From positions 1 through 39,279 of the IMG/VR virus record IMGVR_UViG_3300032278_000035: a stretch of DNA of 39,279 bases; one strand, 5' to 3'. The position numbers were made by a program, and so were the translations under genes. Positions 20,063 through 26,948 of this stretch are shown one piece after another. Origin of the DNA: a virus. The notes beneath the pieces are model-generated. The model was not told where the DNA came from, did no database searches, and saw only the letters and a list, made by a program, of their open reading frames with translations. Numbering within the stretch: position 1 is the first letter of the stretch; each line of letters opens with the position of its first letter.

Positions 20063-20440
20063 TTAAAAATCAGGATCGTCCTCACCCTGCGTTTCGTTCT
20101 CAGCCATCTCAAGAACCTTTATTTTCTTGAAGTAACTGGACACACCGTAGGTGGGATGAGGCTTGCCCGGTTCCCACATGATCCGAACCTTAGAACCATA
20201 TGGAATGTGCTTACCGATTGTTTCCCCTTCTGCGTCCAAAACTGGAAAGCCGGGAAACTTGGTGACGAACTTACGCTGCGGCTGATCCTTATAAGTCTTA
20301 TAAAGAACACCAACGTCCGAAAGCTTGTCAGCCTCGTCCTGTTCCATAGTCACAACGATTGAAAACTTTCCGGTGTCCTGACCGTTATAAAGTTCCGTTG
20401 TGGCTAAATTGGAAAATGCTACTGTACCTTCTGTGATCAT
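20063..20440 (-). CDS. Single-stranded DNA-binding protein, T7 gp2.5-like, 125 aa
   Basis: A compact beta-rich protein (GKFSIVVTMEQDEADKLSD, FVTKFPGFPVLDAEG, YGSKVRIMWEPGKPH, FKKIKVLEM) with an acidic tail ending EDDPDF. A terminal acidic-Phe tail is the hallmark of phage SSBs such as T7 gp2.5, which use it to contact polymerase and helicase. Start ATG follows AGGAG by 6 bases. It is a single gene with its own downstream terminator. Sequence similarity to gp2.5 itself is low, so the call rests on size, tail and context. Confidence 0.75.
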   Translation of the reverse strand: MITEGTVAFSNLATTELYNGQDTGKFSIVVTMEQDEADKLSDVGVLYKTYKDQPQRKFVTKFPGFPVLDAEGETIGKHIPYGSKVRIMWEPGKPHPTYGVSSYFKKIKVLEMAENETQGEDDPDF

Positions 20441-21048: not shown

Positions 21049-21234
21049 CTACTCGCCTCCTTTTTTATAGTCGTGTATTTGCTGTAGAGCTTCTTTATCC
21101 CGAAGCTGGGTGACTTTGCTTTTAAAAGTTTTAGGGGGATAATAACCGTCCATAACTACCTTCTCAGGGTTACGCGGTTTAGGGGGGCCACCCTTCCGAT
21201 ACAATGAAACTGTGTGTTTGTCTTTACGAACCAT
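21049..21234 (-). CDS. Hypothetical basic protein, 61 aa
   Basis: Very basic and Pro-rich (SLYRKGGPPKPRNPEKVVMD), with a helical C-terminus. AGGAGG lies 7 bases before the ATG. Such charge could suit nucleic-acid binding. No family recognised. Confidence 0.6.
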   Translation of the reverse strand: MVRKDKHTVSLYRKGGPPKPRNPEKVVMDGYYPPKTFKSKVTQLRDKEALQQIHDYKKGGE

Positions 21235-21500: not shown

Positions 21501-21574
21501 CTTAAGAAGTCTTTAGAAATTTCTTTAATTATTTTTTAAAGTAACTTACTAAAGATAACTAAAGACCTCTTAAG
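21501..21574. repeat. 16-bp inverted repeat next to an early promoter
   Basis: Arms 21501-21516 and 21559-21574 are inverted copies matching at 15 of 16 positions, separated by 42 A/T-rich bases. Both contain CTTAAGA and TCTTTAG. The right arm lies just inside the -10 box of the leftward promoter, so it covers the start of the transcript. It may be a regulator binding pair or a 5' leader hairpin. Confidence 0.8.
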
Positions 21575-21575
21575 T

Positions 21576-21604
21576 ATTCTATAGTAGGGGTTATTCTCTG
21601 TCAA
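21576..21604 (-). promoter_or_regulatory. Strong sigma70-type promoter, leftward
   Basis: Read leftward: TTGACA (21604-21599), 17-base spacer, TAGAAT (21581-21576). The -35 box is a perfect consensus and the -10 matches four of six. It starts inside the end of the 52-codon Cys-rich gene and drives the 21467 group. Confidence 0.85.
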
Positions 21605-21749
21605 ACAGATTATCTCCGTAGAAATCCCCATTCGTTTCGTAAACTGAAGCCATGCAGTTTTTGCATGTCTCTAGGTACTCTCCTTTTCTGTCTTTTTTTG
21701 ATAACTCAGAGGTTTCTAACCTCCTGTCGCAACATCTACATCTAGACAT
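21591..21749 (-). CDS. Small Cys-rich (zinc-finger-like) protein, 52 aa
   Basis: ATG 21749 with ribosome site AGGAGAG. The product begins MSRCRCCDRRLETSELSKKD and contains CKNCMASVYE. Cys4, Cys7, Cys29 and Cys32 form a C-x2-C-x21-C-x2-C zinc site. The layout resembles short phage proteins that read like half of a zinc ribbon. The promoter of the next group lies over its last codons. Confidence 0.65.
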   Translation of the reverse strand: MSRCRCCDRRLETSELSKKDRKGEYLETCKNCMASVYETNGDFYGDNLFDRE

Positions 21750-24507: not shown

Positions 24508-24549
24508 GCATTGATACATATATATACAAAAATAGTTTGTTAGTCTGGT

Positions 24550-24705
24550 GTGGTCCGTGGTGGTCTTAAGTGGTCCCTAAAATACCATAATCGTAAACAT
24601 ACTTCTCTTGCATTTCTCTGGACCACACAGGACCACTTCGGAATAGCTAAATCTGCGTTAGCGTGTTTTAGGTAGTAACACACCACAAGTGGTCCGAAGT
24701 GGTCC
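24550..24705. repeat. Phased GTGGTCC / GGACCAC heptamers
   Basis: GTGGTCC occurs at 24550, 24570, 24689 and 24699. Its complement GGACCAC occurs at 24620 and 24630, and once more at 25004. Pairs are spaced 10 or 20 bp, so they face the same side of the helix. Within them, 24629-24642 and 24693-24706 form a perfect 14-bp inverted repeat around 50 bases. This pattern fits binding sites for a multimeric protein. Confidence 0.85.
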
Positions 24706-24735
24706 TATGAGGCTTAAAATGCCCATATGGACCTG

Positions 24736-24898
24736 TGTGACATTTATGCAACACTGTGGTATTAATGCCACATGTGACACTTAGGTAACACTGTGGTATT
24801 TATGCAACACCTGTGATATTACTGCCACACTGTGACACTTAGGTAACACCTGTGACATTTATGTCACTGTCGATCCCCTTTGTGGTATTTTTGCAACA
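24736..24898. repeat. Iteron-like array, eight dyad units of about 19 bp
   Basis: Units start at 24736, 24755, 24773, 24792, 24812, 24831, 24851 and 24881, with consensus TGTGRYAYTTATGYMACA. Most are imperfect palindromes; the seventh contains the perfect GTGACA-TTTA-TGTCAC. Units 1-3 repeat as units 4-6 (period 56-58 bp), so the array grew by copying a triplet. Non-coding on both strands. Candidate replication-initiator or regulator sites. Confidence 0.9.
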
Positions 24899-24969
24899 TT
24901 TCCTTGGGTGTCGCAAATATCCCCTTGGGTGTCCGAAGCGATCCCCTTGGGTCCGAAGGGGGGGGACCC
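24873..24969. repeat. CCTTGGG direct repeats and a G-rich tract
   Basis: CCTTGGGTGTC begins at 24902 and 24923, with CCTTGGGTCC at 24945, spaced 21-22 bp; a related ATCCCCTTTG is at 24873. The set ends in a run of G (24958-24965) flanked by GGGTCC and GGACCC. The last base pairs can form a hairpin. This lies between the iterons and the rightward promoter. Confidence 0.8.
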
Positions 24970-25073
24970 TTAGAGAATCGGGATAATTATTGCAACACTC
25001 TCAGGACCACATCAGAAGCAATTTGGACCCTCTAAAATTACATAAATATTACAAATAAAGTTAAAAATAGTGC

Positions 25074-25120
25074 TTGACAGGCCCTTAAGAGTTGACTAAA
25101 GAGCTAAAATATGATAGAAT
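25074..25120 (+). promoter_or_regulatory. Rightward promoter(s) for the late genes
   Basis: The best is TTGACT (25092-25097), 17-base spacer, TAGAAT (25115-25120). A second -35, TTGACA at 25074-25079, has a poor -10 (TAAAGA) at 17 bases. The -10 box TAGAAT is the same as that of the 21576 promoter. The leader to the first gene is about 160 bases and carries the CTTAAG sites. Confidence 0.8.
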
Positions 25121-25233
25121 ATAGTATATTCAGTAGTTATCTACTTAAGAACACTTAAGAACCCAAAGTGGAAAACTTTAAGTGTTTATCTTTAAGTTAA
25201 TTACTTTTTCCTCGACCCTTAAGAACTCTTAAG
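25084..25233. repeat. Phased CTTAAG sites around the rightward promoter
   Basis: CTTAAG lies at 25084, 25144, 25154, 25218 and 25228. The last four form two pairs, each spaced exactly 10 bp. CTTTAAG is at 25176 and 25190. AACACTTAA (25150-25158) and TTAAGTGTT (25178-25186) form a perfect 9-bp inverted repeat with a 19-base loop. Likely operator sites or leader RNA structure. Confidence 0.75.
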
Positions 25234-25287
25234 TAGAGGATTTGTCTCCCTAAGTTGTCAGGGCAAAGTCAAAAAGGAATAATATTG

Positions 25288-25671
25288 ATGGTTTCTCTAA
25301 AAGATCCTCCGGTTGCTGTAAAAAAGAAAAGAGGTAATCCAAATTTATACAAAGGAATGCCCCCTTTAAATCCAGCAGGAAGAACAAAAGGGTCTTTAAA
25401 TAAGTACACTAAACTATCCAGAGAACTCATGTCCAATAAAGGGCCTGAAATAGTTCAAAAAGTGATAGATTTAGCTCTGGAAGGGGACCGCCACTGTCTT
25501 AAGATGTGTATGGACAGGATTATTCCAACAAGTAAGGCAGTAGAAATTACACACGACCATCAGGACTTGGGTATTAATATAATAGTAGAGTCCGTGAAGG
25601 CAATAGAGAGAATAGAAGAAGAAGAATTTAAGACCATAGAGGCTGAGTACACAGAAGAAACAAAAGAGTGA
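25288..25671 (+). CDS. Terminase small subunit-like protein, 127 aa
   Basis: I chose ATG 25288, with AGGA 9 bases upstream; a TTG at 25255 would add 11 residues. The segment PPLNPAGRTKGSLNKYTKLS matches the N-terminal signature of many phage small terminase/DUF5681 proteins, followed by a helical DNA-binding body and a very acidic C-terminus (EEEEFKTIEAEYTEETKE). The protein recognises phage DNA and loads the large subunit, whose gene overlaps its stop by 4 bases (GTGA). Confidence 0.8.
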   Translation: MVSLKDPPVAVKKKRGNPNLYKGMPPLNPAGRTKGSLNKYTKLSRELMSNKGPEIVQKVIDLALEGDRHCLKMCMDRIIPTSKAVEITHDHQDLGINIIVESVKAIERIEEEEFKTIEAEYTEETKE

Positions 25672-26948
25672 CGGATTTAAATGTTACTCTCCACGATGCC
25701 CAGATGGAGATCTTCACTTCTAAAAAAAGATTCAAGATTGCCTCATGTGGTCGAAGGTTCGGAAAGAGTTACTTAGCAGCGTGGGTGTTAATAATCAATG
25801 CACTCCAAAGTACCTCTAAAGATGTTTTTTATGTAGCACCTACTTTCCAGCAAGCTAAGGACATTCTCTGGTCCATACTTAAAACTATTGGAAAGGACGT
25901 AATAAAAGCTGCACATGAAAACACCGCTACCCTGACCCTGATAAATGATCGAAAGATCTACCTGAAGGGGTCAGACAGACCGGACACTTTAAGGGGTGTA
26001 GGTCTAGCTTACGTAGTGATGGACGAATACGCTTCGATGAAGCAGGAAGTGTGGGAGATGATCTTAAGACCCACATTGGCAGACATAAAGGGTGGTGCGT
26101 TATTCATAGGAACCCCGGCTGGAAAGAACCACTTTTATCAGTTGTGGCTGGACGCACAAAAAAAAGAATACGAGAAAGAGTGGGAAGCTTTTCAGTTTAA
26201 TTCTACTGATAATCCCTTTTTAGACCCTCTGGAAATAGAAGCCGCTAGAAGTACAATGTCTACTCAGGCATTTCGGCAGGAGTTTGAGGCCACATTTGAA
26301 ACCTTTTCAGGTGGGATATTTAAGGAGGAATGGTTACAATATGTGGACGATGATGAGTTCGACGATAAAAAAGCTAAAGCTCAAGGTCATTTCGTTATAT
26401 CGGTGGACCCGGCTGGCTTTGAAAAAGCTCAGAAAGAAAGGGGTCTAAAGTCATCCAAACTGGACGAAACGGCAATATCGGTTGTAAAGATTGCTCAGGA
26501 CGAATGGTTAGTTAAGGACATTCTACACGGTAGGTGGGGTATAAAAGAAACCGCTACAAAAATATTGGACGCAGCGGAGGACGTACAGGCCACTACAGTA
26601 GGGATTGAATCCGGGGCACTTAAAAATGCTATAATGCCGTACATAGAAGACGAAATGAGAATGAGGGGTCGTTGGGTTAATATAACGGACGTAACCCACG
26701 GAGGTAAGAGGAAACAGGACAGAATAGTCTGGGCTTTACAGGGGAGAATGGAACACGGTAAGATAAAGTTCAGGAAAGCGGATTGGAACAAATACTTCAT
26801 AGGTCAGATGCTTGACTTCCCCAGCCCACTTGCACATGATGATCTTCTGGACTCTCTGGCGTACATAGACCAAGTTTCAGTTTCGGACTTTGCACAATCG
26901 ATAGAATTAGAGGAATGGAAACCATTGGATAACCTTTCCGGGTACTAG
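25668..26948 (+). CDS. terL: Terminase large subunit, 426 aa
   Basis: GTG start overlapping the previous stop. The ATPase domain shows Walker A SCGRRFGKS (Lys33), Walker B YVVMDE (Asp119, Glu120) and the coupling segment IGTPAGK. The RNase H-like nuclease domain shows SVDPAG (Asp247), GIESGALKNAI and AHDDLLDSLAYI with late Asp residues. The protein powers DNA into the prohead and cuts the concatemer. Both domains appear intact. Confidence 0.95.
   Translation: MTDLNVTLHDAQMEIFTSKKRFKIASCGRRFGKSYLAAWVLIINALQSTSKDVFYVAPTFQQAKDILWSILKTIGKDVIKAAHENTATLTLINDRKIYLKGSDRPDTLRGVGLAYVVMDEYASMKQEVWEMILRPTLADIKGGALFIGTPAGKNHFYQLWLDAQKKEYEKEWEAFQFNSTDNPFLDPLEIEAARSTMSTQAFRQEFEATFETFSGGIFKEEWLQYVDDDEFDDKKAKAQGHFVISVDPAGFEKAQKERGLKSSKLDETAISVVKIAQDEWLVKDILHGRWGIKETATKILDAAEDVQATTVGIESGALKNAIMPYIEDEMRMRGRWVNITDVTHGGKRKQDRIVWALQGRMEHGKIKFRKADWNKYFIGQMLDFPSPLAHDDLLDSLAYIDQVSVSDFAQSIELEEWKPLDNLSGY

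Follow-up and report, generated by a model that had tools for sequence, protein, structure and literature searches.

The window (the whole stretch of DNA analysed here, a virus record of 39,279 bases from a marine uncultivated tailed phage) carries CTTAAG boxes phased at 10 bp around its early and late promoters, and these boxes are a real and conserved feature that is very probably regulatory. The arrays are of a known general kind, the operator array. The reading that they are cooperative operators of one factor and serve as an early-to-late switch is given a probability of about 0.6; that a protein binds them, in which direction it regulates and that a switch results are inferred from the sequence.

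The genes of the phage are divided between two long operons, whose labels as early and late are assumed from gene content. The leftward genes (10.5-24.5 kb) encode ribonucleotide reductase, endonuclease I, DNA polymerase, primase-helicase and a T7 gp2.5-like single-stranded DNA-binding protein (SSB), and the terminase, portal and virion genes run rightward from 25.3 kb. The late operon opens with a probable terS (25255..25671, plus strand), which precedes terL, is present in all A-group relatives and has a weak match to the Pfam family DUF5681 that falls under the cut-off; its frame opens at a TTG (25255), and the ATG at 25288 is the likelier start. The gene for the large terminase subunit, terL (25668..26948, plus strand), has a PHROG match at 4.8e-47. 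Named phages are distant matches only (primase-helicase below 50% identity, portal about 26%, terL mostly over half its length); no near DNA match to the window is present in the annotated phage collection, and a terL search of genome contigs for host identification gives no match. The Autographiviridae CRP-804 and HTVC031P have a related primase-helicase, DNA polymerase and endonuclease I but, unlike the window, possess a phage RNA polymerase and no CTTAAG pairs. A search for a T7-type RNA polymerase (PF00940) gives no match in the window or in 22 relatives, while it recovers the enzyme in the positive controls CRP-804 and HTVC031P. Transcription should therefore depend on the host polymerase.

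The late promoter is of the sigma70 type and leads into terS and terL. It is recognized by sequence on the plus strand (-35 TTGACT at 25092-25097, a 17-bp spacer, -10 TAGAAT at 25115-25120, predicted start near 25127), and its position is conserved in relatives. The CTTAAG sites of the cluster lie at 25084, 25144, 25154, 25218 and 25228, forming two 10-bp pairs and one single site. The single box (25084..25089, plus strand) is immediately 5' of the -35 and is the one exact box on the upstream side of this promoter; a variant box, CTAAAG (25096-25101), overlaps the -35. The two pairs, CTTAAG-AACA-CTTAAG (25144..25159, plus strand, about +18 to +33) and CTTAAG-AACT-CTTAAG (25218..25233, plus strand, about +92 to +107), are both kept in relatives.

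The early promoter lies 3.6 kb away and points leftward on the minus strand, with a -35 TTGACA (21604-21599), a 17-bp spacer, a -10 TAGAAT (21581-21576) and a predicted start near 21569; it too is conserved in relatives. An array of four boxes in unbroken 10-bp steps (21549..21584, minus strand) lies over the -10 and the start site and reaches into the earliest transcribed bases. In plus-strand letters the boxes are CTAAAG at 21549, CTAAAG at 21559, CTTAAG at 21569 and CTATAG at 21579. A second early pair, CTTAAG at 21501 and CTTTAG at 21511 (21501..21516, minus strand), lies about 55-70 bp inside the early transcript, and the CTTAAG that the earlier note had placed beside the early promoter is thus present at both 21501 and 21569. 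The early leader also contains a dyad (21501..21574, minus strand) whose arms co-vary among relatives, and its transcribed part can fold as a 5'-terminal hairpin (AGAGGTCTTTAG ... CTAAAGACTTCT). Close 3' of the early leader, a small basic protein with the motif PKxFRSRK (21049-21234) is kept in many relatives.

A factor shared by three promoters had been proposed in the earlier note, the third being marked by a CTTAAG at 24565. The site exists, but it belongs not to the promoter system and instead to a GTGGTCC repeat, of which it is probably a chance variant; it is rejected as a third regulated promoter, so that three promoters become two. For these two the proposal is supported: both carry arrays, the arrays are conserved and boxes in relatives also lie 5' of the late -35, making a factor shared by the early and late promoters the best-supported reading. 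The region between the operons that contains 24565 (24540-25020) is dense in repeats, with GTGGTCC in 10-bp steps and TGTGACATTTATGCAACAC repeats, and carries a G-run (GGGGGGGGACCC) at 24958 and, after it, a box like GGACCACATCAGAAGCAATTTGGACC; part of this is kept by relatives, including sister phages that have no boxes. The block is a candidate cos/pac site or origin. Sites of the pac or cos type often lie directly upstream of terS/terL, as the late cluster does, and the boxes might be part of a DNA packaging or replication site beside terS and unrelated to transcription. This is very improbable, as the same phased boxes occur 3.6 kb off at the early promoter in fixed register to its -10, and the conserved G-run and repeat block, partly retained by the box-less sister phages, is a better cos-like candidate.

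Five CTTAAG sites within 150 bp, two pairs of them at exact 10-bp spacing, were the core of the earlier note. The positions are confirmed and the arrangement is far beyond chance: five sites in 150 bp are reached in 0 of 300 whole-window dinucleotide shuffles (maximum three) and 0 of 20,000 local shuffles, and among the 64 palindromic hexamers CTTAAG alone exceeds three per 150 bp in the window. Over the whole window there are 29 CTTAAG sites against 15.8 expected, a number reached in 1 of 100 shuffles. With CCTAAG, CTTAGG, CTATAG, CTAAAG and CTTTAG admitted as variants, the window holds 109 boxes and six exact 10-bp pairs, compared with a mean of 0.115 and a maximum of 2 in 200 block shuffles. 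All six pairs sit at the early and late promoters and none occurs elsewhere in the window, so the genome-wide count and the check for promoter clustering that had been proposed both bear the observation out. Coding regions are mildly enriched in CTTAAG (15 against 8.3 under synonymous shuffling) and show no 10-bp phasing there; the genome-wide coding excess counts against the operator model.

Conservation was followed in 80 terL relatives, 78-91% identical to the window. In most relatives above 80% that have enough upstream DNA, the terS leader retains CTTAAG boxes, mostly paired 9 or 10 bp apart and in some cases as single sites only; some relatives carry single or diverged boxes. Relatives at 78-79%, in which the late leader is very short, have zero boxes, and four near-complete sister genomes contain no CTTAAG pair. 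Since the boxes were found at related promoters, the objection that they might be absent from relatives fails. In a wider viral collection the early-promoter signature is found in 39 stretches, some of them by chance, and TATAAT followed by CTTAAG-N4-CTTAAG is found in at least 120 stretches. Among the latter matches listed, many belong to the terS leaders of a second marine phage group, which is more distant. These leaders have two pairs set 58-85 bp apart, and in the same group the promoter before the ssb gene has CTTAAG or drifted forms directly after the -10. In both phage groups none of the other 64 palindromic hexamers is as over-represented as CTTAAG. In 37 genomes its pairs are spaced at 10 bp in 38 cases, at 9 bp in 13 and at 11 bp in none. 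Distances between exact and variant boxes are most frequent at 10 and 20 bp, and the flanks prefer TA-CTTAAG-TA. Chance, base composition or restriction-site statistics could be invoked, since this genome is rich in CTTAAG overall, but such an origin is scarcely credible: it is refuted by the shuffles, by the conserved fixed spacing and by a backwards-pattern control, which yields 52 stretches where the TATAAT-pair pattern itself yields its 120 or more.

Several observations in the relatives stand beside this pattern. The late promoters of L032, L049 and others have a conserved GCGGGGTA and an upstream TTGAC just before a phased CCTAAG array that lies 5' of the promoter; the GCGGGGTA box is absent from the late promoter of the window and may be a second promoter or the site of another factor. 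In the early leader of L197 a box variant has grown into a CTTAGGACC tandem array with a 9-bp period and at least five copies. The sister phages (L490-L497, G041-G044), whose terL is about 79% identical to that of the window, avoid many palindromic hexamers, which suggests hosts with strong restriction pressure. They contain 3 CTTAAG sites against about 48 expected, and an avoidance specific to CTTAAG is rejected because 22 other palindromic hexamers rank lower, which makes the avoidance general.

The placement of the boxes is informative about how they could act. In 14 non-redundant late promoters, the interval from -55 to -25, counted from the end of the -10, contains 14 boxes where 0.7 are expected, the interval from +6 to +36 contains 16 where 0.7 are expected, and zero boxes lie on the -10. 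The phased boxes of relatives 5' of the late -35 are outside the transcript, so a role in the DNA is best supported. One sequence-specific DNA-binding factor would recognize CTTAAG as its putative box. Boxes one turn apart face the same side of the helix, an arrangement that suits cooperative binding, and molecules bound in 10-bp steps could share that face and bind cooperatively. Because the early array covers the -10 and the start site, binding there should stop early transcription: the factor would exclude polymerase and switch early transcription off. The late boxes, positioned 5' of or over the -35 and then near +20/+30 and +90/+100, flank the core promoter and leave the -10 free, so that activation, looping and a roadblock are all possible; the factor might be an upstream activator, a downstream repressor or roadblock, or part of a short loop. 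The switch would work on the host sigma70 polymerase in a phage that lacks an RNA polymerase of its own. The most economical interpretation is a single switch that shuts down early transcription and sets that of the late genes.

The early hairpin makes an RNA role the main rival, since its arms co-vary. The element might work as RNA, through antitermination like that of the HK022 put sites, protection of the mRNA 5' end, RNase III cleavage or control of first-gene translation. The early leader opens at about +1 with a stem of 10-18 bp whose arms vary by lineage and remain complementary; arms match their own partners better than those of other leaders (8.8 compared with 7.9 of 14), a difference reached in 0 of 20,000 permutations of the arms. 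A smaller set of early leaders gives 7 of 20,000; in both cases the relatedness of the leaders is uncorrected. Mean folding z-scores are -2.1 (dinucleotide shuffles) and -2.9 (hexamer-keeping shuffles) for early leaders and -3.6 and -2.0, respectively, for late leaders; folding beyond the hexamer-keeping shuffles, together with the co-varying early arms, argues against operators alone. The late leader of the window and several early leaders, though not all leaders, can form two stem-loops.

Other observations count against a role as RNA. The boxes 5' of and over the late -35 stay untranscribed in the late transcript, and the early CTTAAG at about -5 to +1 is mostly untranscribed. Compensatory stem changes are seen in the early leader and not in the late one: no co-variation is detected around the paired boxes or in the two late arms and their linkers, and local hairpins that use the 4-base linker as a loop are on this ground rejected as the reason for the pairs. 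Where two copies of one non-palindromic variant lie 9-10 bp apart, they form direct repeats in six cases and compensated inverted pairs in none, and direct repeats of CCTAAG or CTAAAG cannot pair together. Template-switch correction of imperfect palindromes could also keep the early arms matched. No Rfam match is found in the window. An element that works as RNA is considered unlikely, and the co-varying early hairpin, which the first reading of the sequence had overlooked, leaves a partly RNA-based mechanism open. We conclude that the boxes act in the DNA and that the early leader adds an RNA (or cruciform) feature.

Both sides of this conclusion can be set against HK022, in which put leaders of about 70 nt lie just 3' of the promoters of long operons (PMC9378689). 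Both long operons of the window likewise begin with a leader right after the promoter, like the two put sites of HK022, and several early leaders have two stem-loops. Unlike the put sites, the boxes also lie outside the transcript and show DNA phasing, and the late arms lack co-variation. A closer parallel in regulatory logic is offered by phi29, where p4 and p6 handle the early and late promoters together, with early repression and late activation of transcription by the host polymerase (PMC3100819). The window resembles phi29 p4 in that its early and late promoters share their sites, a likeness of logic and not of kinship. Here, however, the promoters are 3.6 kb apart rather than adjacent and carry CTTAAG arrays in place of the p4 inverted repeats, and no p4 relative is seen among the small proteins scanned. 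By analogy, the box positions allow early repression and late activation in the style of p4. CTTAAG boxes at phage promoters or operators are not described in the papers searched.

The architecture of the arrays recalls the operators of ribbon-helix-helix (RHH) proteins. MetJ (at met boxes) and Arc bind short symmetric boxes, about one turn or less apart, cooperatively over a promoter. The tandem symmetric boxes with a fixed 10-bp step at both promoters are similar, but the box sequence and step differ, and in 23 phages there is no match to PF01402 (RHH_1) and none over the cut-off to PF03869 (Arc). A divergent or host-encoded RHH protein may be the factor. The small early proteins scanned include no clear DNA-binding regulator. 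In a comparison of gene profiles the sole perfect match to the distribution of the boxes is the gene at 20063-20440, which is rejected as the regulator as its fold is that of a T7 gp2.5-like SSB, not an obvious regulator.

A protein from outside the known DNA-binding families might also read the boxes. One such protein is a Zn-ribbon protein of 52 amino acids with four cysteines (CxxC...CxxC; 21591..21749, minus strand). Its gene runs as far as the early promoter and, in nearly all related genomes, is located always just 5' of that promoter. The structure model of the protein is of modest confidence, with no clear structural match and no confident family match. By gene profile it is rejected as the factor, being present in all four box-less sister genomes; a regulatory role for it is possible. 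The fuller proposal, in which such a factor reads the boxes and the leader dyad belongs to the same switch, with one element that serves initially as an operator and later as RNA, is improbable; if true, it would mean an operator-then-RNA element across a wide marine phage group. The factor might instead come from the host, as a regulator that is used by the phages or keeps them silent, and not be a switch made by the phage. No phage gene of a recognized DNA-binding family follows the box distribution, which favours a host factor, but the functions of many small phage proteins are unassigned, and a constantly present host factor would block the early start from the outset. A host regulator is considered improbable.

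In their sequence, spacing and position the boxes give a specific regulatory signature that is conserved over a wide marine phage group. These phages are mostly known from sequence only, and the timing of early and late transcription in those without their own RNA polymerase is largely untested. The signature makes the early-to-late switch of marine phages directly testable and helps to locate the starts of operons in metagenomic phage genomes.
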